The notes under the pieces are model-generated. The model was not told the DNA's origin. It searched no databases and saw nothing but the letters and a program-made list of their open reading frames with translations. 64,000 nucleotides of DNA from Lysobacter alkalisoli (lineage in GTDB: Bacteria > Pseudomonadota > Gammaproteobacteria > Xanthomonadales > Xanthomonadaceae), in NCBI RefSeq assembly GCF_006547045.1, contig NZ_CP041242.1:2242001-2306000 (forward strand). Reading direction: 5' to 3'. The translations under genes were made by a program, and so were the position numbers. Within the stretch, counting starts at the first letter, position 1; every line of letters starts with the position of its first letter. Positions 2,921-39,900 of the stretch are shown here, one piece after another.

Positions 2921-3838
2921 ATGAGCAAGGAATTTGGCTTTACACGCTGTTCGGTCCTCAATGACAACAAAATGTATGTCGCCGGAGTCGCTGTGGAACT
3001 GGAGGACGATGACGTCCATCACGCAATCCTGTTCGAGCATGTCGATGGCGATTGGGACAAGTGGTCTTTCGAGCATCGACTGGCCGGGATCGCCAGTTAT
3101 GAGGAAAACGGCATCGCGAAGCTCATCACTGCCGGGGTGGATGGGCATATCGAAACGGCAGATTTCGATGGGGCCCAGGAAGAGCGCATCACTGCAGGCG
3201 ACAATGAAACCGCCCCCGGCCTCCTGTGCCCTCTGCACTGCATCCGGATCATCGGCGATCACGCCTATGTAGCCGGCACGGCACGTCAGGTATTCAGACG
3301 GCGGCTCGGCGAGACCGAATGGACGCGCAGCGACCACGGCTGCGTCATTCCCTGCTCAAGCCATGAAATCGGCAGCTTCCACGACATTGACGGCCCAGAC
3401 GAGAATTTTCTGGTCGCGGCAGGGCTCGGCGGAGAAATATGGCTCTCGACATCTGGAACATGGGAAAAGCTGGACAGCCCCACCCATGTCAGGCTGGAGG
3501 CGGTAAAGCATCTTGGCGGTACAGGATTCATCGCTGCCGGAGCCGAAGGCACCATCATCATGGGCGATGGAGAAACCCTGCGCGCACTGGAACAGGATTC
3601 CACGAAAGAGACGTTCTCGAGCATCGAGGAAGCATTCGGAAAGATCTACCTTTGCACCGACCAGGGCAATCTGTTCTGCATCGGCCGCGACGGCGCGCTC
3701 GGCCGGGTAGACACCGGCCTGCCGGCATCGCCTGGAGGAGGATCCCTCTCGTTCAATGAACGAAGCCTGCTGTTCGCCTGCGACTTCCATGTCGTCCTGT
3801 TCGACGGGAATGACTGGCAAGAGTTGCATCCAGCCTGA
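2921..3838 (+). CDS. Beta-propeller-like repeat protein of unknown function
   Basis: A 305-residue protein without signal peptide or membrane segment. It is built of short beta repeats of the form AAGxxGEIWxxxxGxWxxxxSPTxxxLxAV, followed by AAGAEGTIIMGDGETL and YLCTDQGNLFCIG, which suggests a WD40/YCF48-like propeller. A close paralogue lies at 4664-5571, with one gene between. AAGGAA precedes the ATG. I do not recognise a named family; such paralogue arrays are often seen as immunity or specificity modules, but nothing here proves that. Confidence 0.6.
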   Translation: MSKEFGFTRCSVLNDNKMYVAGVAVELEDDDVHHAILFEHVDGDWDKWSFEHRLAGIASYEENGIAKLITAGVDGHIETADFDGAQEERITAGDNETAPGLLCPLHCIRIIGDHAYVAGTARQVFRRRLGETEWTRSDHGCVIPCSSHEIGSFHDIDGPDENFLVAAGLGGEIWLSTSGTWEKLDSPTHVRLEAVKHLGGTGFIAAGAEGTIIMGDGETLRALEQDSTKETFSSIEEAFGKIYLCTDQGNLFCIGRDGALGRVDTGLPASPGGGSLSFNERSLLFACDFHVVLFDGNDWQELHPA

Positions 3839-3840
3839 AG

Positions 3841-4503
3841 GTGAATCGCCGGAACATGCACAAGATACCCGCCTACATAGACCTCGCAGCGCTGCAACGA
3901 AGCCCGGTCGCCTTCCTCTGGGATGACTGGGATCCCTATGCTTCATTGGGCAAGTTCGACCCCGATACGGAAGAGCGCCTCTCGGCGATGTCCGATCGGG
4001 CGATCATCGCCTTCACCATTGGCTGTGCCGAATGGGTGGCTGCCCGATTGTGGAGAAACCGGCCCGAACCCACGCCGTTTCGGTTCATGGAGGCCTGCTG
4101 GGCCTACAACATGACGGACAACCTGTTCTGGCTTCCTCCCGAGAGCGACGAGCGTGAATGGCAAGGCAAGGAGTTGGCTCCAATCGATCTGGCGCTGATG
4201 ACGATCCTGAACGCCATCTACGGAACCGAGGATGCAACATCGGCCGACGAAGGTGCCTTGGCCGAACAGATCGCCCTGCGGGTGCTACCCGGGCCTTCCG
4301 GCTTCCCCGAATGGCGCCGGGAGGCCTTGCAGCGACTCGCGCAGCTCTGTCCGCGCTTGCCAACTGACTCACTGGGCCCTCCGGTCCCAAAGGAAGCTCT
4401 GGACCCCGCAATGCCCCTGCACGCCCTTGATGCGCAGAAGAGCGTTGCGGACTTCCTCGAGGGCCTCGACACGGATCGGAACCCTTACTTGAGAAGGATC
4501 TAG
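3841..4503 (+). CDS. Hypothetical protein between two propeller paralogues
   Basis: It is a 220-residue soluble, Trp- and Leu-rich protein (FLWDDWDPYASLG near the start). I recognise no family. It begins two bases after the preceding stop, either at GTG 3841 or at ATG 3856. Neither has a strong ribosome site, so coupling to the upstream gene is likely. Its place between two related propeller genes suggests they form one functional cassette. Confidence 0.55.
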   Translation: MNRRNMHKIPAYIDLAALQRSPVAFLWDDWDPYASLGKFDPDTEERLSAMSDRAIIAFTIGCAEWVAARLWRNRPEPTPFRFMEACWAYNMTDNLFWLPPESDEREWQGKELAPIDLALMTILNAIYGTEDATSADEGALAEQIALRVLPGPSGFPEWRREALQRLAQLCPRLPTDSLGPPVPKEALDPAMPLHALDAQKSVADFLEGLDTDRNPYLRRI

Positions 4504-5873: not shown

Positions 5874-5962
5874 GCTTTGCAAGCTTGCAGCGAAACATGG
5901 GCATCAGGCCACACGGCCGCCCCGGATCACGGAATGAATGAACCTGCCCCCTTTTTTCGGAG
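5874..5962 (+). repeat. RAYT 3'-end remnant plus REP arm
   Basis: The codons before the TGA at 5939-5941 read RPHGRPGSRNE, like the RPRGRPKSSDK end of the intact RAYT. Exactly as there, they run into AATGAACCTGCCCCC plus a T run. It lies in the gene-poor stretch 5572-6094. A 58-residue frame from 5765 with a hydrophobic start (MWLLLLCVFALLAVV) ends at this point but has no clear ribosome site; I do not call it. Confidence 0.5.
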
Positions 5963-18125: not shown

Positions 18126-18172
18126 AAGCAGTCCGAGAAATCAGGGGTGGCTCAATCTCACCCCATTTTTCC
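18126..18172. repeat. Repeat similar to the IS3 right end plus REP arm
   Basis: GTCCGAGAAATCAGGGGTGG then CTCAATCTCACCCCATTTTT closely matches 32907-32950, the right end of the IS3 element and its flank (GTCCGAGAAATCGGGGGTAG). It is either an old IS footprint or a REP copy that the IS end resembles. Confidence 0.5.
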
Positions 18173-23655: not shown

Positions 23656-23752
23656 GAGATGGAGTCAGGTTCATTTCTCAACAGTCTTCCGCCGGCCTCA
23701 GGTTCCGCGGCTGCCCCGGATCAGCGGATAAATGAACCTGCCCCTTTTTTGT
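23656..23752. repeat. RAYT-associated repeat, complete hairpin
   Basis: GAGTCAGGTTCATTT (about 23663) pairs with AAATGAACCTGCCCC (about 23730), which is preceded by GGCTGCCCCGGATCAGCGGAT and followed by a T run. This matches the arms that flank the intact RAYT at 30806 and 31593. The nearby stretch 23576-23827 holds no gene. Confidence 0.7.
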
Positions 23753-28920: not shown

Positions 28921-29721
28921 TCAGCGCAAGGGCTGGTAGCGCGATGCCACTTCGTTGCTCGAGAGCTGGGGCGCCATCGCCTTGCGCGCGCCCTCAAAGG
29001 CATCCCAGAGAGCCACGTCATGCAGTGCAGGAATCGTCACCGACTCCCCGCGCTCGAAGCCCTGCAAGGCGGCATCCACCAGGTCTTCGGCACGCATCAC
29101 GATCTGTGCCGGCAGGTGCTCCACGGGAAGGCCGCCGCGGGCCCAGAACTCGGTGGCCGTCGCACCCGGCAGCACGGCTTGCACCCGCACGCCTTTGCCG
29201 GCGAGCTCGTGCTGCAGCGATTGACTGAAGGCCAATACGAAGGCCTTGCTGCCGCCATACACGCCATTGAGGGTTTCCGGCGAGACGGCGACAGCGGAGG
29301 CGATGTTGATCAACGCGCCTTTGCCGCGTGCCACGAAGCCGGGCACCGCCGCGTAGCTCAACCGGGTCAGCGCCGTCACGTTGAGGTCAATCATGCGCAC
29401 CATCTCGTCCACGCCGCTCTCCAGCAGCGGCGTGTGCGTGCCGATGCCGGCGTTGTTGACCAGCAGGGTGATGCTGGCATCTTGCTTGAGCTTGTTCTCC
29501 ACGCTGCGCAGCGCCACCGGGTTGTTCAGGTCGGCGGGAAAGACCTCCACCGCGCGGCCGTGGCGGCTGGTGATTTCCTCAGCCAACGGGTTCAAGCGAT
29601 CGCGGTTGCGGGCGACGAGGATCAGGTCGTAGCCGAGTCGCGCCAGGCGGTCGGCGTAGAGGGCGCCTATGCCGGAAGATGCTCCGGTGATGAGGGCGGT
29701 GCCCAGGTTCGTCTGTGTCAT
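28921..29721 (-). CDS. Short-chain dehydrogenase/reductase
   Basis: Start ATG 29721 (CGGAG 8 bases before); 266 residues. Classical SDR motifs are present: LITGASSGIGALYA (NAD(P) site), LLVNNAGIGTHTP, INIASAVAV (Ser), YGGSKAF (Tyr-x3-Lys). The basic residues after the second strand (VARNRDRL) suggest NADP. It is the first gene of the leftward cluster, divergent from the AraC/GlxA regulator across about 108 bases. Confidence 0.88.
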   Translation of the reverse strand: MTQTNLGTALITGASSGIGALYADRLARLGYDLILVARNRDRLNPLAEEITSRHGRAVEVFPADLNNPVALRSVENKLKQDASITLLVNNAGIGTHTPLLESGVDEMVRMIDLNVTALTRLSYAAVPGFVARGKGALINIASAVAVSPETLNGVYGGSKAFVLAFSQSLQHELAGKGVRVQAVLPGATATEFWARGGLPVEHLPAQIVMRAEDLVDAALQGFERGESVTIPALHDVALWDAFEGARKAMAPQLSSNEVASRYQPLR

Positions 29722-29829
29722 GGTGATGCTCCGTTTCGGGGTTGCGATGGAACCCATGTTGCACCGTCTAGCGTTTGGCGCAAATGACGCTTATAGTCAT
29801 GTTTTATGCCATTGGCTCCGGAGACGCAC

Positions 29830-30777
29830 ATGCACAAAATCGGCTACGTCCTGCCGGCCGGCTTCCAGGTGATGGCGCTGGCCACGCAGGCGGTCTTCGA
29901 GTTCGCCAATTTTGTGGCGGGCGAGCCCTTCTACGAGGTGACTTGCCACTCGATGCCCGGGGGCAGCGTGAAGACATCGCTAGGCACGGCCCTGCAGACG
30001 CGTCCCTTCACCGCACGCAGCACGGCCGACACCTGGATGGTGGTGGGCGTGATCGACCCGTTGGCCACGCCATCACCATCCGAATTGCTGCGTGCGCTGC
30101 GAAAGTGCAGCGCTCGGGCACGTCGGACCGTAGGCCTGTGCACCGGAGCTTTCGTGCTGGCCCAGGCCGGCCTGCTGGCAGGGCGGCGCGCCACGACGCA
30201 CTGGGCCTATGCGAACGCACTGCAACAGCGGTATCCCGATGTCCAGGTCGAGCCGGACCGCATCTTCATCGCCGATGACCCGATCTGGACCTCGGCCGGC
30301 ATGACGGCCGAACTGGATCTGGCGCTCGGCCTCGTCGAGAAGGACCTGGGCGACGACGTGGCGCGATCGGTGGCGCACCGGCTGGTCATGCATCAGCGCC
30401 GTTCGGGCGGCCAGTCGCAGCATTCGGAGATCCTGAATCTCGCGCCGCGCTCGGACCGCATCGCGCGGGCGCTGGAGCATGCCCGCGGCCACCTGGCGCA
30501 GTCGCTGAGCGTGGAAGAACTCGCTGCGGCCGCGAACCTCAGCCCGCGCCAGTTCAGCCGCGTGTTCACGGCCGAGACCGGCCAGTCGCCAGCCAAGGCG
30601 GTAGAGCGTCTGCGCGTGGAGGCAGCGCGTTTGATGATCGAGCGCAGCCGCCATCCGCTGGAGGTGGTGGCACGCGAAACAGGCTTTCGCGACCGACGCC
30701 ATCTTCGCGAGGCGTTCATGCGGGGCTTCGGCAAGCCGCCTCAGTCACTCAGGCGCGACGCCCGCCTGGGGTCCTGA
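29830..30777 (+). CDS. GlxA-family (DJ-1/PfpI + AraC HTH) transcriptional regulator
   Basis: I choose ATG 29830 (CCGGAG 7 bases upstream): 315 residues. The N-terminal DJ-1/PfpI-like sensor keeps GLCTGAFVLAQAGLLAGRRA, the nucleophile-elbow Cys position. The C-terminal ~100 residues are an AraC-type double HTH (SVEELAAAANLSPRQFSRVF, VARETGFRDRRHLREAFMR). Divergent from the SDR/hydrolase/reductase cluster, which is its likely target. Confidence 0.88.
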   Translation: MHKIGYVLPAGFQVMALATQAVFEFANFVAGEPFYEVTCHSMPGGSVKTSLGTALQTRPFTARSTADTWMVVGVIDPLATPSPSELLRALRKCSARARRTVGLCTGAFVLAQAGLLAGRRATTHWAYANALQQRYPDVQVEPDRIFIADDPIWTSAGMTAELDLALGLVEKDLGDDVARSVAHRLVMHQRRSGGQSQHSEILNLAPRSDRIARALEHARGHLAQSLSVEELAAAANLSPRQFSRVFTAETGQSPAKAVERLRVEAARLMIERSRHPLEVVARETGFRDRRHLREAFMRGFGKPPQSLRRDARLGS

Positions 30778-30800
30778 AGCGTGTCGAGATGACGGTGACC

Positions 30801-30823
30801 AAAATGGGGTCAGGTACATTTCC
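30801..30823 (+). repeat. Left REP arm of the RAYT unit
   Basis: GGGGTCAGGTACATTT (30806-30821) is the reverse complement, with one mismatch, of AAATGAACCTGACCCC at 31593-31608 after the transposase gene. The two arms bracket the RAYT as an inverted repeat about 800 bp apart. Confidence 0.75.
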
Positions 30824-30905
30824 TACATACGCGCACGCAGTTGTCTGATGGTCGCGGCGCAAGCGATATCGAACACTAGGGGTCTCTTCACCGCATGGAT
30901 GCGAC

Positions 30906-31598
30906 ATGGCCCGCCTGCCCCGCCTCGACTTTCCCGGTATCGCCCAGCACATCGTGCAACGCGGCAATGACCGGCAAGCCTGCTTCGCCGACGACGCCGA
31001 CCACCTGCACTATCGCCAGGAGCTCGGCCAGGCTGCGCTCAAGCATGGCTGCGACCTGCACGCCTACGTGCTGATGACCAACCACGTGCACCTGCTGGTC
31101 ACTCCGCACGAGATCGGCGCCGTCTCAAGGATGATGCAGGCCATTGGCCGACGCTATGTCGGTTGTTTCAATGCCCGGTATCGCCGCACCGGCACGCTCT
31201 GGGAAGGCCGCTTCAAGTCGGCACTGGTCGACAGCGCCGACTACCTGCTCACCTGCTATCGCTACATCGAGCTCAACCCCGTCCGTGCCGGCATGGTGGC
31301 GAAACCCGCGGATTACCGCTGGTCCAGCCATGCCCACAACGCCCTTGGCGCACATGAGTCCCGCATCACTCCCCATCCGCTCTACCTCGGACTCGGAGCG
31401 AACGCTATCGAGCGCCAGCTAGCGTACCGCGAACTGTTCAATGCCGAACTGGGCTCGAACAAGATAGACGACCTTCGTGCCCACACCCAGCAACAGAAGG
31501 CCTGGGGCAGCGACCGCTTTCGTCAACAGATCGAAGCGCTGACCCAGCGATCCGCAAGCGTCAGACCCCGCGGGCGCCCCAAATCTTCGGATAAATGA
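30906..31598 (+). CDS. REP-associated tyrosine transposase (RAYT, IS200-like Y1)
   Basis: The 230-residue protein carries the HUH motif in YVLMTNHVHLLVTPHE (His60, His62) and the Tyr-bearing helix YLLTCYRYIELNPVRAGM, as in TnpA-REP enzymes that nick and join single-stranded REP hairpins. It appears intact. The last codons (RPRGRPKSSDK) and stop lie inside the right-hand REP region, a feature repeated at other loci in this window. RAYTs are usually domesticated and spread REPs. Confidence 0.9.
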   Translation: MARLPRLDFPGIAQHIVQRGNDRQACFADDADHLHYRQELGQAALKHGCDLHAYVLMTNHVHLLVTPHEIGAVSRMMQAIGRRYVGCFNARYRRTGTLWEGRFKSALVDSADYLLTCYRYIELNPVRAGMVAKPADYRWSSHAHNALGAHESRITPHPLYLGLGANAIERQLAYRELFNAELGSNKIDDLRAHTQQQKAWGSDRFRQQIEALTQRSASVRPRGRPKSSDK

Positions 31599-31723
31599 AC
31601 CTGACCCCTTTTTTCTTTTCGACCGCTTTCGTCAACAGATCGAAGCCCTGACCCAGCGATCCGCAAGCGTCAGACCCCGCGGACGCCCCAAATCTTCGGA
31701 TAAATGAACCTGACCCCTTTTTT
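31511..31723 (+). repeat. Tandem duplication of the RAYT 3' end with its REP arm
   Basis: The 109-bp unit 31511-31619 (last 29 codons of the RAYT, stop, AAATGAACCTGACCCC and T run) is repeated at once at 31620-31723 with about two mismatches. The second unit is cut by the IS3 element, whose left end lies in the repeat. Confidence 0.85.
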
Positions 31724-31752
31724 CGAGGACAATCCTCGCATGGAGGTGTTCG

Positions 31753-32046
31753 ATGCAGAAGCGTCAACGGTTCACGGCGGAGTTCAAGCGCGAGGCGGTT
31801 CGACTGCTCAAGGCGGGCGATCGGCCAGCGGCGGTCGTGGCGCGGGAGCTGGGGATCCCGCGTAATCGGCTCTACAAGTGGGCGCAGGATCTGGAGAAGA
31901 AGGGCAGCCAGGCCTTTGCCGGCAGCGGTCGTCGTCCGGCCGGTATCGACGATCCGGCCGCGCTCAAGCGCGAGATCGCGCGGCTGAAGGAAGAGAACGA
32001 GATCTTAAAAAAAGCGGCGGCGTACTTCGCGCGGGAACTGCCGTGA
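31753..32046 (+). CDS. IS3-family OrfA (HTH protein)
   Basis: This 97-residue protein has the IS3 OrfA helix-turn-helix, VVARELGIPRNRLYKWAQDL, and the leucine-zipper tail, LKREIARLKEENEILKKAAA. GGAGG lies 6 bases before the ATG. The A7 run near its 3' end lets ribosomes slip into orfB; unslipped OrfA acts as a regulator. Confidence 0.9.
   Translation: MQKRQRFTAEFKREAVRLLKAGDRPAAVVARELGIPRNRLYKWAQDLEKKGSQAFAGSGRRPAGIDDPAALKREIARLKEENEILKKAAAYFARELP
32006..32014 (+). other. Probable -1 frameshift site (A7G)
   Basis: The run TAAAAAAAG sits in orfA, and orfB continues in the -1 frame through this point, the standard IS3 arrangement for making the OrfAB transposase. A GTG at 32043 overlapping the orfA stop would allow separate OrfB translation. 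Confidence 0.75.
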
Positions 32047-32900
32047 AGTACGCATGGATCCGGGATCAATCCGGCTACCCGGTGCGTCGGCTATGCCGGG
32101 CATTGAACGTCTCAACAAGCGGCTACTACGCCTGGCGGGATCGCCGGCCCAGTTCGCGCGCCAAGGCGAACGCGCAGCTGCTGGAACGCATCCAGGCGCT
32201 CCACGCGCGGAGCCGGCAAACCTACGGTGCAGTGCGACTGTGGCAGGCGCTACGTCGCGAGGGCGAGACCTGCGGTCGGCATCGCGTGCGCCGGCTGCGC
32301 CGCAAGCATGGGATCCAGGCCAAACGGCGGCAGCGATATATACGCACGCGCGGCACCTACCAGCGCGTGCCCCCAGCCCCGAACCTGCTGGCTTGGCCCT
32401 TTGTCAGCCCCAAGCCGGGCGCGGTCTGGGTCGCTGACATCACCTTTGTGCCCACGCGCGCCGGCTGGCTGTACCTGGCCGCGGTCCTCGACCTGCATAC
32501 CCGTCAGATCGTCGGCTGGGCGATGGGCGAGCGCGCCGACCAGGCCCTGGTCAGCGCCGCGCTGCGGATGGCGGTCGAACGCCGCAAGCCTGCGCCGGGC
32601 GCGATCCATCACAGCGATCAGGGCAGCCAATACACCAGCGGCGCCTATCAGACCCAGCTCAAGGCCGCCGGTCTGCAGCCGAGCATGAGCCGCAAGGGCA
32701 TGCCTTACGACAATGCGGTAATGGAGAGCTTCTTCAGCTCGCTCAAGCAGGAGTTGACGCACCATGAGCGCTTCGTCGGCCTCGACGAAGCCAGGCAGAA
32801 GCTGTTCGACTACATCGAGGTCTTCTACAACCGCCAACGGCTGCATAGCAGCCTCGGCTATCGGACGCCGGTTGAACAGGAGCAACTGGCGAGTGCTTAA
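32043..32900 (+). CDS. IS3-family OrfB (DDE transposase)
   Basis: OrfB has the HTH_21 region (RRLCRALNVSTSGYYAWRDR) and a full rve integrase core. The DDE triad is in VWVADITFVP, HHSDQGSQYTS and NAVMESFFSSLKQE, and the terminal block YNRQRLHSSLGYRTPVE is typical. All catalytic residues are present, so the element may be active. It is read as the OrfAB fusion after frameshifting, or from the GTG overlapping orfA. Confidence 0.9.
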   Translation: MKYAWIRDQSGYPVRRLCRALNVSTSGYYAWRDRRPSSRAKANAQLLERIQALHARSRQTYGAVRLWQALRREGETCGRHRVRRLRRKHGIQAKRRQRYIRTRGTYQRVPPAPNLLAWPFVSPKPGAVWVADITFVPTRAGWLYLAAVLDLHTRQIVGWAMGERADQALVSAALRMAVERRKPAPGAIHHSDQGSQYTSGAYQTQLKAAGLQPSMSRKGMPYDNAVMESFFSSLKQELTHHERFVGLDEARQKLFDYIEVFYNRQRLHSSLGYRTPVEQEQLASA

Positions 32901-32994
32901 TTAACCTGTCCGAGAAATCGGGGGTAGCTCAACCTGACCCCTTTTTTTCCTTTTTTTGGACCCCTTTTTTGCCTTTTTTGCTTTCGGGGCCTGC

Positions 32995-35250
32995 TCAGCT
33001 GGACACCTTCGAACAGAAAGCCTCAAAATCACCCGCTGCCGTCGCCAGCGCTGATTGGATGCGGCTCATCGGCATGGCCAGTCGATACCTCTTTTGAACA
33101 CCAGCCCCCCGGTAATCGGTTTCAGCTAGGACGCCTGACCTGAGAAGGGCAGGCAAAACCGAATCAAAGAATACCGGGGCCTCCACCCCCAACTTTACCC
33201 GCAGAGTCTGCTCATTATGTTGAGTCGCACGCATAAATGCACGCATGGCACGTGAAACTATCTCAAGCTCTGGATCGGGCGATGCCTTTCCAGATTTCTC
33301 ACCTGCCGCATCACCAATGCCAGAAAACCCTGCCTTACGAAGCGCGTCATCTATACCCGCCGGGTCATAGACCGTCGACTCGCCGTCTGGAAGCACAACA
33401 CACGCAATATCGCACTCACTCAACGATGTTTCGAAGACGCGGCTATTTGCGAATTCTATCCGTTCAAACGTGCAGTGCTCGAAAGCCACTCTCGAAAGCA
33501 CCGTTCCATTGAGTGAAGTAGGCCCGAAATAACATTTCAAAAACCTTACCCGCGCAAGCTTCCGATCTACAAGAGACTGTGACGAGAAAGCAAACCCTTC
33601 CGCGATTCGCTCCCCACCGTCCGACTCAACCTCGCCGTCCAACACGCGTACAAGCAGGTTGCCCGCATTCTCAGGCACAAACGAGGTAGGAAGCTCGCCG
33701 GCGACTACAGAGACGAGGAGGCTGGTCAGCGATTGATGCGAAGTGCCGCCCTTGATGCAAGAGAGAACAGCCTCATCTAAGGCGACACTCGGGATCAATG
33801 CCGTACGCAATAGCGAGCGCAGCAACTCAACATCTAGCTTAGCCAATGCCAAGCTGAGGGAGACACCCAAGAAGAACTGTCGAAAATCTTCGTGATCGAA
33901 TGAGAACCCAGGCCGACCGCCACCGACCTTAACAAGCAAGGCATGATGGGTCAGTCGTTCCCTAACTTGACGAGCTACGCTAGGAGACTTCTTACCTTCC
34001 TCACAAAAGAGGTCCGCGACAAAGTCAAGTAGATCACTGCGAAGCACATCCACTCCGGAAACCCACATCTCCTTCGCCACATCCGCGAGCAATCGATGAT
34101 GCTCTGCCAATGTGAGAAGAGGTCTTTGATCTGCCGTGTCCCTCCACTTCTCTTGCGCCTCGCGCTCGATGATGGCAAGCACGAACGCGTGAAAATAAGC
34201 CTGAGGCGTATCGCCAAGCTTAGCCACGAGAATATCGACTTCATTCACATCCTTGGCCACATCAAACAGTCTTCGCACAAGCACAGCACGTGTGATCAGT
34301 GGATGCGTCTCGCCGAGCCGCGCGGAAACCGCATCGTATATCTCTGCACCATCCTTGCGACCTCTTCGTGAGGCATACTGTTCAAATTGTTTCCTCGTCC
34401 ATCGATGCAAAGAAACACGCGAAAACGCCACCGATTGTTCTGAGCCTATTGCATCGAACAGACGGGCCTGCGTGCGAAAGCTCTGGTACTCGAAGAATGC
34501 CTTCCGAGCTGCGAACAGCGCCTTACCCTCAGAGCTTAACTGATCAATAAACGACCCCAGTGCGGAAAGCGCATCACCAGACGAGTTCTCGACAATCATC
34601 TCTTCGAACCCGTCAAACGCGGGAACGACTACTCCCATCCTGACCAGCTCAACAAAGCTTTCAAAGAACCAAAACGGAAAGCGATAACGTCCCATCAACG
34701 CAGCTAGAACAGCCTCATCGAATCGGAGAAATGCCCTACCTCCGAGCGGGATAGGCAAGATAATCCAATCCTGCTTCCCTGATTTGTAACTCTCTGCTGC
34801 TGCGCGAGACAGTCGTGAGATAAGAGTGGTCTTTCCCTCGCCCGCGTCAGAAGTGAGGTAGACGATCTGCGTAGTTCCCGGAGTCTGCCGCGCCAGAAGA
34901 CGCAGACAGAGAACCTCTGCTCCTTGAGGCTCCTCTTCGGAGTCGCCTGTCGTTGAGTCCAACTCAGGAAGATAGGCAGCGTCTGGTTCTACAAAATTAT
35001 CGGGATCTGGAACAGCTGCTAGGATTCGATCAGCCAAGAGCCGTAACTTGCTAATACGCTTAACTACCCATGCTTGGGCCGGGATAGCCAACTCACCCTC
35101 TTCGACATAGAGCACTCCATCAGTCTTCCGAAAACGACCGACGATCGTCTCATCGATGGTTTGGAGAACAAATTCGCCATCCGCACCAACAAAGCTGTTC
35201 GGAGAATCCGAGAAACACCCAACAATTCTCTTGAAATCCTTGACGTCCAC
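32995..35250 (-). CDS. NACHT-type STAND NTPase, candidate defence sensor
   Basis: The 751-residue protein starts at GTG 35250, one base after the NYN gene's stop, so it is translationally coupled. Walker A is SDAGEGKTTL (134-143). The NACHT-style Walker B is VVVPAFDGFEEM (207-218), and ALFAARKAFF (244-253) sits where the sensor follows. Pentapeptide-like repeats come after (FLKCYFGPTSLNGTVLSRVA, then HCTFERIEFANSRVFETSL, about 565-620). The C-terminal ~90 residues look like a winged helix (LLRSGVLAETDYRG...KRYRLAM). GC is about 45-50%, against 65-70% nearby. Bacterial NACHT proteins commonly sense phage; the ligand here is unknown. Confidence 0.72.
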   Translation of the reverse strand: MDVKDFKRIVGCFSDSPNSFVGADGEFVLQTIDETIVGRFRKTDGVLYVEEGELAIPAQAWVVKRISKLRLLADRILAAVPDPDNFVEPDAAYLPELDSTTGDSEEEPQGAEVLCLRLLARQTPGTTQIVYLTSDAGEGKTTLISRLSRAAAESYKSGKQDWIILPIPLGGRAFLRFDEAVLAALMGRYRFPFWFFESFVELVRMGVVVPAFDGFEEMIVENSSGDALSALGSFIDQLSSEGKALFAARKAFFEYQSFRTQARLFDAIGSEQSVAFSRVSLHRWTRKQFEQYASRRGRKDGAEIYDAVSARLGETHPLITRAVLVRRLFDVAKDVNEVDILVAKLGDTPQAYFHAFVLAIIEREAQEKWRDTADQRPLLTLAEHHRLLADVAKEMWVSGVDVLRSDLLDFVADLFCEEGKKSPSVARQVRERLTHHALLVKVGGGRPGFSFDHEDFRQFFLGVSLSLALAKLDVELLRSLLRTALIPSVALDEAVLSCIKGGTSHQSLTSLLVSVVAGELPTSFVPENAGNLLVRVLDGEVESDGGERIAEGFAFSSQSLVDRKLARVRFLKCYFGPTSLNGTVLSRVAFEHCTFERIEFANSRVFETSLSECDIACVVLPDGESTVYDPAGIDDALRKAGFSGIGDAAGEKSGKASPDPELEIVSRAMRAFMRATQHNEQTLRVKLGVEAPVFFDSVLPALLRSGVLAETDYRGAGVQKRYRLAMPMSRIQSALATAAGDFEAFCSKVSS

Positions 35251-36961: not shown

Positions 36962-39900
36962 TTACATATTCCGCCGATACTCCCCACCCACGTCATACAG
37001 CGCATGGCTGATCTGCCCCAGGCTGTGGGTCTTGACGGCCTCCATCAGCGATTCAAACACATTCCGGCGCTCGCGGGCGGTGTTCTGGAGGTAGGTTAGG
37101 CCTGAGTTGCCCTCACCCTGCCCTCTCCCGCTGGCGGGAGAGGGTTCCAAACCGTTGCGGAGCTGCTGGAAGTTGGCGACGTTGTCGATCTGCTGGCCTT
37201 TCTCGCCTTCCGTGCTGCGGATCAGTTCGATCTCGGTGACGATGTCGCCGGCGTGCTCCTTGGGCAGGTAGGTGTTGACGCCGATCAGGGGCAGGCTGCC
37301 GTCGTGCTTCTTGTGCTCGTAGTAGAGGCTTTCTTCCTGGATCTTGCCGCGCTGGTACATGGTGTCCATGGCGCCGAGGACGCCGCCGCGCTCGCTGATG
37401 GCTTCGAACTCCTTGTAGACGGCCTCTTCAACGATGTCGGTGAGCTTGTCGACGATGAAGCTGCCCTGCCAGGGGTTCTCGCAGAAGTTCAGCCCCAGCT
37501 CCTTGTTGATGATCATCTGGATGGCGACGGCGCGGCGCACGCTCTCTTCGGTCGGCGTGGTGATGGCCTCGTCGTAGGCGTTGGTGTGCAGGCTGTTGCA
37601 GTTATCGAACAGGGCGTACAGGGCCTGCAGGGTGGTGCGGATGTCGTTGAACTGGATTTCCTGCGCGTGCAGGGAGCGGCCGCTGGTCTGGATGTGGTAC
37701 TTCATCATCTGGCTGCGGCTGCTTGCGCCGTAGCGCTCGCGCATGGCGCGGGCCCAGATGCGGCGGGCGACGCGGCCGATGACGGTGTACTCCGGGTCCA
37801 TGCCGTTGGAGAAGAAGAACGACAGGTTGGGCGCGAAGTCGTCGATCTTCATGCCGCGCGCGAGGTAGTACTCGACGATGGTGAAGCCGTTGGACAGGGT
37901 GAAGGCGAGCTGGCTGATCGGGTTCGCGCCGGCTTCGGCGATGTGGTAGCCGGAGATCGACACCGAGTAGAAGTTGCGCACGCCCTTGTCGACGAAGTAC
38001 TGCTGGATGTCGCCCATCATGCGCAGGGCGAACTCGGTGCTGAAGATGCAGGTGTTCTGGGCCTGGTCTTCCTTGAGGATGTCGGCCTGCACGGTGCCGC
38101 GCACGGTCTTGAGGGTGTCGGCCTTGATGCGGGCGTAGGTTTCGGCATCGACGACCTGGTCGCCGGTAACGCCGAGCAGGCCGAGGCCGAGGCCGTCATT
38201 CGTTTCGGGCAGGGTGCCGCTGTATTCGGGGCGTCTCTTGCCCTCGAACAGCTTTTCGATGGTGTCGTGGGCGGCGTCCCAGCGTGACTGGTCCTCGCGC
38301 AGGTATTTCTCGACCTGCTGGTCGATGGCGGTGTTCATGAACATCGCCAGGATCATCGGCGCGGGGCCGTTGATGGTCATCGACACGCTGGTGGTCGGCG
38401 CGCACAGGTCGAAGCCGGAGTACAGCTTCTTCATGTCGTCGAGTGTGGCGATGTTGACGCCGGAGTTGCCGATCTTGCCGAAGATGTCCGGGCGCGGCGC
38501 CGGGTCCTCGCCATAGAGGGTGACCGAGTCGAACGCGGTGGACAGGCGCGCGGCGGGCTGGCCGACGGACAGGTAATGGAAGCGGCGGTTGGTGCGCTCG
38601 GGCGTGCCCTCGCCGGCGAACATGCGGATCGGGTCCTCGCCGCTGCGGCGGTACGGGTAGACGCCGCCGGTGTACGGGTAGGCACCAGGCAGGTTTTCCT
38701 TCTGCAGGAACACCAGCAGCTCGCCCCATGACTTGTAGGTGGGCGCGGCGATCTTCGGGATCTGCTGGTGGCTGAGCGATTCGCGGTAGTTCTCGACGCG
38801 GATGGTCTTGTCGCGGACCTGGTACTCGTTGACCTCGTCGGTGATCGACTTGAGGCGGGCTGGCCATTCGCGCAGCAGTTTGAGGGCTTCGGAGGAGAGC
38901 GACTGGATGGCGTCGTTGTAGCGTTGGCGCAGGGTCAGCAGGGTCTTGTCTGCTTTCGCTCCCTCTCCCGCTTGCGGGAGAGGGCTGGGGTGAGGGGCTT
39001 TTCCGCCAGAGGCGCCCTCATCCGCCCTTCGGGCACGTTGATTCACCACATCCTTGTGGCTCACCCTCCGGGCGACTTCGTCGTCCAAATCGGCAATCCA
39101 TGCCGATTTGTCTCCCGCATGCGGGAGAAGGGATTCTGCGTCGTAAAGATCCAGGGCCTTTGGCAGCTTGTCGTCCTCGAGCGATTCAAGCGCCTGCCAG
39201 CAGCTCTGCGCGCGGTCGGCGATCTCGGCCTCGGTCTCGATCTGCGTGTTGATCGCCCTGCCCTGTTCGGCGATCTCGGCGAGGTAGCGCGCGCGGTTGC
39301 CGGGAATCAGGACGGTCGCGCGCGGTTCTTTCAGCGAGGTGTCGATGTTCGGGGTGAAGTCGCAGCGGGGAGAAAAAATGGGGTCAGAGTCATTTTTCGA
39401 CTCTTTGCCCGCCTCCCCTTTGCCTTCTGCCTTCGAAAAATGACTCTGACCCCATTTTTCCTTCAGCAGGCGGCACAGGTTGGCGAACATCCAGCTGATG
39501 CCGGGGTCGTTGAACTGGCTGGCGATGGTCGGGTAGACCGGCACGTCCTCGTCCTTCATCGAGAACGCGACGCGGTTGCGCTTCCACTGCTTGCGCACGT
39601 CGCGCAGCGCATCTTCCGCGCCACGCTTGTCGAACTTGTTGAGCACGACGAGTTCGGCGAAGTCGAGCATGTCGATCTTCTCGAGCTGGCTCGGGGCGCC
39701 GAAGTCGCTGGTCATCACGTACATCGGGAAGTCGACCAGGTCGACGATCTCCGAGTCGCTCTGGCCGATGCCGGCGGTCTCGACGATGACCAGGTCGTAG
39801 CCCAGGCCCTTGAGGAAGGCGATGGAATCCTGCAGCACCGCGTTGGTGGCGGCGTGTTGCCGGCGGGTCGCCATCGAGCGCATGTAGACGCGCCTGGAGC

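Follow-up and report, generated by a model that had tools for sequence, protein, structure and literature searches.

Stacked terminal fragments at the ends of TIRtrons: a Lysobacter unit with a duplicated right end and its relatives

IS200/IS605 elements (IS608, ISDra2) share a Y1 HuH core fold with the transposase described here; they carry subterminal hairpins, and both of their ends are cut on one strand. RAYT units, or REPtrons, of which E. coli TnpAREP (PDB 4er8) is an example, are flanked by REPs and have hairpins with a GTAG foot. In the sections of Quentin et al. 2018 (PMC6006769) that set out the TnpAY1 subclasses, the IS200/IS605 proteins form subclass 1.1, with a Y---Q motif, DH[VI]H and a median length of 152 aa, and subclass 2.1 is characterized by NHVH or NH[YF]H, W[EQ], a YIELNP-type Y motif and a length of ~238 aa. 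A C-terminal HTH-like domain (Bac_DnaA_C, HTH_23 or HTH_28) is reported there for subclass 2.1, which is said probably to correspond to the TIRYTs of Di Nocera et al. 2013 (PMC3733652). The parts of the two papers dealing with these genes describe them as free of REPs and flanked by long terminal inverted repeats (TIRs), many of which contain GGGGWSAS, with further TIR-like repeats that occur elsewhere as dimers or in clusters; those parts mention no end at +7/+8 and no stacks of truncated terminal pieces. TIRtrons are already known, and the apparent novelty is the stacking of terminal pieces anchored at the element's end. We found no account of such stacking in the literature searched, where a relevant paper may have been missed, and no title on bacterial transposons was among the matches listed in a full-text search with the arm sequence.

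A Y1 transposase gene between two inverted repeats

The window is a 64,000-nt stretch of Lysobacter alkalisoli DNA (contig NZ_CP041242.1, positions 2,242,001 to 2,306,000 of the forward strand). On its + strand, a gene at 30906-31598 encodes a Y1 HuH transposase of 230 aa with NHVH at residues 59-62, WE at 99-100 and a catalytic-type tyrosine, Y120, within YIELNP. The protein has a Y1_Tnp domain (E=5.7e-14) and scores 72.6 bits against the NCBIfam model for REP-associated tyrosine transposases, below the cut-off of 80. Residues N59, H60, H62, W99, E100 and Y120 are invariant across 28 relatives. An AlphaFold2 model (28-sequence input) has a mean pLDDT of 92.6, and its top PDB match is 4er8, a REP-associated tyrosine transposase with its REP hairpin (E=4.4e-8), followed by the ISDra2 and IS200/IS608 transposases; a profile search also ranks 4er8 first. 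The RAYT fold is hence the nearest solved one, and the window protein is predicted from the model to have a HuH fold; its catalytic motifs are intact.

The gene lies between two arms. The left terminal inverted repeat, F, spans 30799-30821 (+), with a GGGG core from 30806 and a predicted element end ~7 nt outside the core, the outer limit being drawn from relatives; the arm itself (30806-30821) reads GGGGTCAGGTACATTT. The right terminal inverted repeat, R1, spans 31593-31615 (+) and includes the stop codon of the gene; its CCCC ends at 31608, and the element end is placed at 31615, or +7. The arm of R1 (31593-31608) and that of a second right repeat, R2 (31702-31717), both read AAATGAACCTGACCCC. 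Allowing up to 3 mismatches, the 16-mer arm is found 12 times in the window, where 0.88 would be expected, and 0 of 100 shuffles reach that number. The inverted match between F and R alone is weak (15/16, with 15 attained in 1 of 40 local shuffles), and we take the pairing as real because it is conserved in relatives.

The initial annotation had described these arms as REPs and the gene as a REP-flanked RAYT. The arms do border the unit as it proposed, and it is their identity that has to be revised. A classical RAYT with REPs could be ruled out, as the intergenic flanks contain no GTAG palindromes; the only GT[AG]G hairpins in 29906-32598 are 3 weak ones, all within coding sequence. The protein has NHVH, WE, YIELNP and 230 aa, as in subclass 2.1 and the TIRYTs and not as in subclass 1.1, and the TIR pattern GGGG[AT][CG]A[CG] is present as GGGGTCAG in F and as CTGACCCC in R1 and R2. 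Since its motifs, its length and its GGGGTCAG-containing inverted repeats fit subclass 2.1, the unit is, by its sequence, assigned as a TIRtron, that is, a TIRYT gene (TnpAY1 subclass 2.1) between two TIRs, rather than a RAYT between REPs. In the family lists of 28 members of the group, no Pfam match at E <= 1 was to Bac_DnaA_C, HTH_23 or HTH_28; helices are predicted at residues 158-213 of the window protein in the AlphaFold2 model.

The genome holds this one full unit, and a search with the Pfam model found no second Y1 gene in it. Further full units with both arms, to which the initial annotation had looked, are absent, and what the genome offers in their place, as RAYT genomes do with miniature arm derivatives, is a few miniature F..R pairs and relics. 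In the window these comprise a miniature F..R pair at 23661-23745 (+), whose interior is similar to the 3' end of the unit, and a right-end relic without a left arm, a solo R, at 5901-5959 (+). If as many as 2 mismatches are allowed, 24 sites in the genome match the arm pattern, 9 of them inside ~41 kb around the gene. Although this genome yielded no second Y1 gene, miniature pairs of another TIR type (GGGGTCAGAGTCATTT) were seen in it three times, at 39380-39453 (+) in the window and at 3038802-3038872 and 3455250-3455295 of contig G000:C1.

The duplicated right end and its neighbours

The right end of the unit is duplicated head to tail, as had been recognized at the outset. Its two copies, 31511-31615 and 31620-31724, are identical at 103 of 105 positions and start 109 nt apart; the two mismatches (31538 and 31574) fall at third codon positions and are silent in the frame of copy 1. 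The second copy, a 3'-end piece at 31620-31724 (+), contains codons 203-230, the stop codon and R2, so that the 29 duplicated codons counted originally are obtained if the stop is included. Both copies stop exactly 7 nt beyond CCCC. The first CCCC is separated from the second copy by 11 nt (TTTTTTCTTTT), of which TTTT at 31616-31619 (+) could possibly be part of a very short terminal piece. The layout is thus F, gene and R1 to 31615, TTTT, the piece from codon 203 to R2 ending at 31724, and then, without a gap, an IS3-family element.

This element (31725-32931, +; orfA 31753-32046, orfB within 31878-32900) lacks ~33 bp of its left end in comparison with other copies, and its left side abuts the R2 border directly, base 31724 being assignable to either partner. 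Further on, a third right arm, R3, occupies 32926-32949 (+; arm 32926-32941). Its left half is replaced by the IS3 end (AGCTCA|ACCTGACCCC), a T-rich border comes next, and shorter border-like pieces may continue beyond it to ~32985. The stop at +7, the 11-nt spacer and this third right arm interrupted by IS3 were absent from the initial annotation.

The 103/105 identity may point to a recent age for the 109-bp duplication, as first proposed. None of the 6 other genomes of the genus has a counterpart of the flank at 29600-30800, apart from a single 31-bp match (in G005), and the duplication locus is therefore not comparable within the genus. Likewise, no empty site for the unit was found at the window locus among these 6 genomes.

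An IS3-family element lies within TIRtron arms at about the same base at several places, namely 32906-32941 and 18129-18170 of the window and loci L189 and L165. In several genomes the IS3/arm joints read GGCTCA|ACCTGACCCC on the right and AAGTTAACC|TGAGCC or GGTCAGGT|TGAGCC on the left, as if the TIR arms were a target of the IS3-family element; IS elements that target REPs are known (PMC1525189). Next to R3, a 751-aa protein (32995-35250, -) has as its only library matches weak ones, below curated cut-offs, to a pentapeptide repeat region and to the anti-phage Hailong effector HalA, and is possibly a defence gene.

Stacked end pieces and the end of the element in relatives

Two samples of relatives were compared. 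A scan of species genomes left 79 loci. In the window's family (Lysobacteraceae), 300 of 395 genomes had a protein match, and 80 regions with 93 near-full genes were taken from them; these regions were hand-chosen among the best matches, some for their multiple copies, so the frequencies of stacks given below are not population estimates. An inverted arm pair surrounds the gene in most of the 79 loci with enough flank, mostly ~45-115 bp before the start upstream and within ~60 bp of the stop downstream. The interior of the arms differs among lineages, and the two arms of one unit match.

Additional arms of a unit's own type were counted around genes with an arm-pair score >=14. Where 2.5 kb was available to either side (60 genes), there were 62 extra R and 14 extra F arms downstream, and 25 extra F and 19 extra R arms upstream; close to the gene (500 bp down, 600 bp up), the counts were 29 R and 5 F downstream and 12 F and 3 R upstream. 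Among 70 extra downstream R arms, 22 follow a C-terminal TIRYT fragment and 20 stand <=60 bp after the previous arm, the remainder comprising 6 in miniature pairs, 21 after other DNA and 1 after a different TIRYT part. Close inspection, covering 18 of the 70 in one look and 25 in another, found that the fragments usually begin no more than ~10 nt from the preceding CCCC and at variable codons (e.g. 52, 80, 98, 131, 165, 173, 177, 190, 203, 212). Some stacked fragments are nearer to another TIRYT lineage than to their neighbour and carry the arm type of that lineage: a 570-bp piece at L194 is 85% identical to the L152 protein and 51% to the neighbour's, and its arm is the AATGGAACC of L152.

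A tail beside the right border would also be expected if a younger unit had landed within an older unit's arm, the stacked piece being the older tail. Such nesting should leave the other half of the older arm in the opposite flank, where it was found in 0 of 36 cases tested. N-terminal halves upstream are rare as well: within 3 kb on the same strand, the 80 regions contain 28 C-terminal fragments downstream (in 21 regions) against 3 N-terminal fragments upstream, with 9 C-terminal upstream and 3 N-terminal downstream making up the other classes. We reject nested insertion, whose likelihood we regard as negligible.

Whole TIRtrons might also enter exactly at an existing right border and then lose their left part. 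At least two TIRYT genes do lie close together on one strand in several regions, and pieces of other lineages adjoin the right border, as such trimming would have it. However, the tandem units at L009, L016 and L017 show no abutting R|F joint, their gaps being tens to hundreds of bp; the deletion would have to begin exactly at the border every time; and pieces of 8-20 nt are left unexplained. Insertion followed by trimming is accordingly an improbable source of the stacks.

The position of the joins was determined in a starting set of 172 units (the 93 from the 80 family regions and the 79 scan loci), of which 106 with both arms were kept for the junction profile under a flank limit specific to that profile. 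Tandem duplications were sought whose repeated unit measures 8-299 bp and whose junction falls <=120 nt from the core. Right ends gave 37, with the junction at +4 to +12 outside CCCC in 24 of them (23 genes), and left ends, read outwards, also gave 37, again with 24 at +4 to +12 (24 genes). Junction coverage peaks at +7/+8 (16 and 13 on the right, 17 and 16 on the left), and only 1 and 2 duplications lie wholly on the inner side. With exact repeats only, +1..+16 contains a junction at 18 right and 19 left ends, and when these repeats are binned by 16 nt, the border bin holds 17 and 20 ends, every other bin holding 0-6. At one locus (L051) several successive short pieces are each closed by the same nine outer bases. 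Inner breakpoints range from a few nt to codon 52, and no conserved base pair was seen at the junction.

In 77 full units, complementarity between the outer parts of the two TIRs drops from 0.55 at +6 to 0.31, a background level, at +7; in 34 miniature pairs, background is reached at +8 to +9. Over both sets, complementarity ends at +6 to +8. Because TIR complementarity stops at the same place, the duplication junction can be read as the element's own end. These comparisons establish, at the level of sequence, that the true TIRtron ends are to be placed ~7-8 nt outside the GGGG/CCCC core and that terminal fragments, running from a variable inner point x to the END, are joined head to tail onto the border at either end. 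The recurrent, fixed join just outside the end repeats points to the position where the enzyme cuts.

The 109-bp repeat of the window would, by this rule, be one instance of what TIRtron ends generally do, a point the first reading had missed. It could be taken for an ordinary random tandem duplication unrelated to transposition, given that only one locus is concerned and the genus offers none to set beside it. Among the 106 units, however, 23 right and 24 left ends have the same type of junction at one position, and the window repeat ends at that very position, which makes a chance origin very improbable.

Stacking confined to the right end was considered and dropped, since short stacks are equal at both ends and only the long Lysobacteraceae pieces are biased to the right. 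This bias of the long pieces is absent outside Lysobacterales (3 vs 3 in 57 loci of the scan). Counting GACCCC next to the ends, a simpler measure for which 49 units without a recognizable core at both ends, 10 duplicates and 6 with short flanks were excluded from the 172, gave 43 right vs 22 left in the family sample and 26 vs 26 in the other.

How the stacks could arise

We propose, with a probability of roughly 50%, that the transposase cuts at the border and that one-ended joining to variable sites then builds the stacks. Both TIRs would pair in single-stranded DNA to give a single long stem whose loop is the gene, and the TIRYT would nick this stem at its 3' foot (the END). On the top strand that foot is the right end of the unit, and on the bottom strand symmetry makes it the left end. 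The 3'-OH released there would be joined, at one end only, to a site x. If x is in the sister copy of that end, the product would be a terminal duplication such as the 109-bp repeat; if x is further downstream, it would be an adjacent deletion such as the truncated IS3 beside R2. Repeated rounds would yield a stack. Several observations weigh against this proposal: the junctions show no conserved base pair, loci outside Lysobacterales lack the rightward bias of the long pieces, 21 of the 70 extra downstream R arms come after other DNA, and the search for an empty site yielded none. HuH cleavage by TnpAREP, as described in the pertinent part of PMC8266576, leaves a 5'-phosphotyrosine and a 3'-OH usable for priming or strand transfer, and the joining could be either direct strand transfer or primed re-copying. 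We lean slightly towards strand transfer because there is no excess of microhomology: in 33 of the 35 exact cases it measures 0-3 nt, and over all 35 it averages 1.14, compared with a chance value of ~0.67 (an estimate for equal base frequencies), the difference being due to two outliers.

The main rival to cutting by the transposase is slippage of host replication, in which the polymerase, held up at the foot of the long TIR stem, would resume upstream and so copy terminal pieces twice, with no transposase chemistry involved. Much of the same picture would be expected from it, including junctions at the stem foot at both ends and shortest pieces of merely 8-20 nt. Against it, microhomology is not clearly above chance, and the pieces from other TIRYT lineages and the join into IS3 require more than local slippage. 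We therefore consider slippage unlikely as the general explanation, if by some way the most credible of those set against enzymatic cutting.

A wider form of the cutting model can be offered only tentatively, and is in our judgement rather doubtful: TIRYTs would cut the 3' foot of both strands, and the free 3' ends would repeatedly be joined to sites that vary, within their own ends or in neighbouring ones, giving a ratchet of truncated terminal pieces, with the Lysobacteraceae right border as a landing strip accumulating foreign right ends and other DNA. If this were true, cutting of both strands would set TIRtrons apart from the one-strand IS200/IS605 elements, from which they already differ in having inverted ends, each of which shows the same stacking, and would make them a prokaryotic, HuH-based counterpart of foldback elements. 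Galileo, a foldback-like element of Drosophila, resembles them in TIRs that grow through direct tandem repeats and differs in its P-superfamily transposase, its far longer TIRs and repeats that lie inside the TIR and are not anchored at the last base, as far as the relevant sections of PMC3573991 describe it.

A junction fixed at +7/+8 supplies the missing end of the element together with a testable cleavage site, and suggests that both inverted repeats, as one long stem, are the substrate of the enzyme. The border rule also helps to read the repeat-rich DNA beside TIRYT genes, which may otherwise be mistaken for REPs or unrelated repeats.

A few further arrangements were encountered among the relatives. 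In single-contig genomes, with dnaA assumed at position 1, no lagging-strand bias in orientation was seen by eye. One genome (G291, loci L216-L219) contains 29 matches to AAGTGAACCTGACCCC with <=1 mismatch, 26 of them in one orientation and grouped in a few clusters of several kb. An integron-like cassette array looked attractive there in view of the clustering and the 26 vs 3 orientation of the arms, and was set aside, as a rough list of inter-arm ORFs showed no evident shared cassette gene. At L064, a 170-bp direct repeat (91%; 2698-2868 and 3710-3879) flanks the TIRYT unit. Finally, at L178, L187, L196 and L206, 2-3 arms stacked on the left are mirrored on the right in the same series, spacers included, as though one end were a copy of the other.
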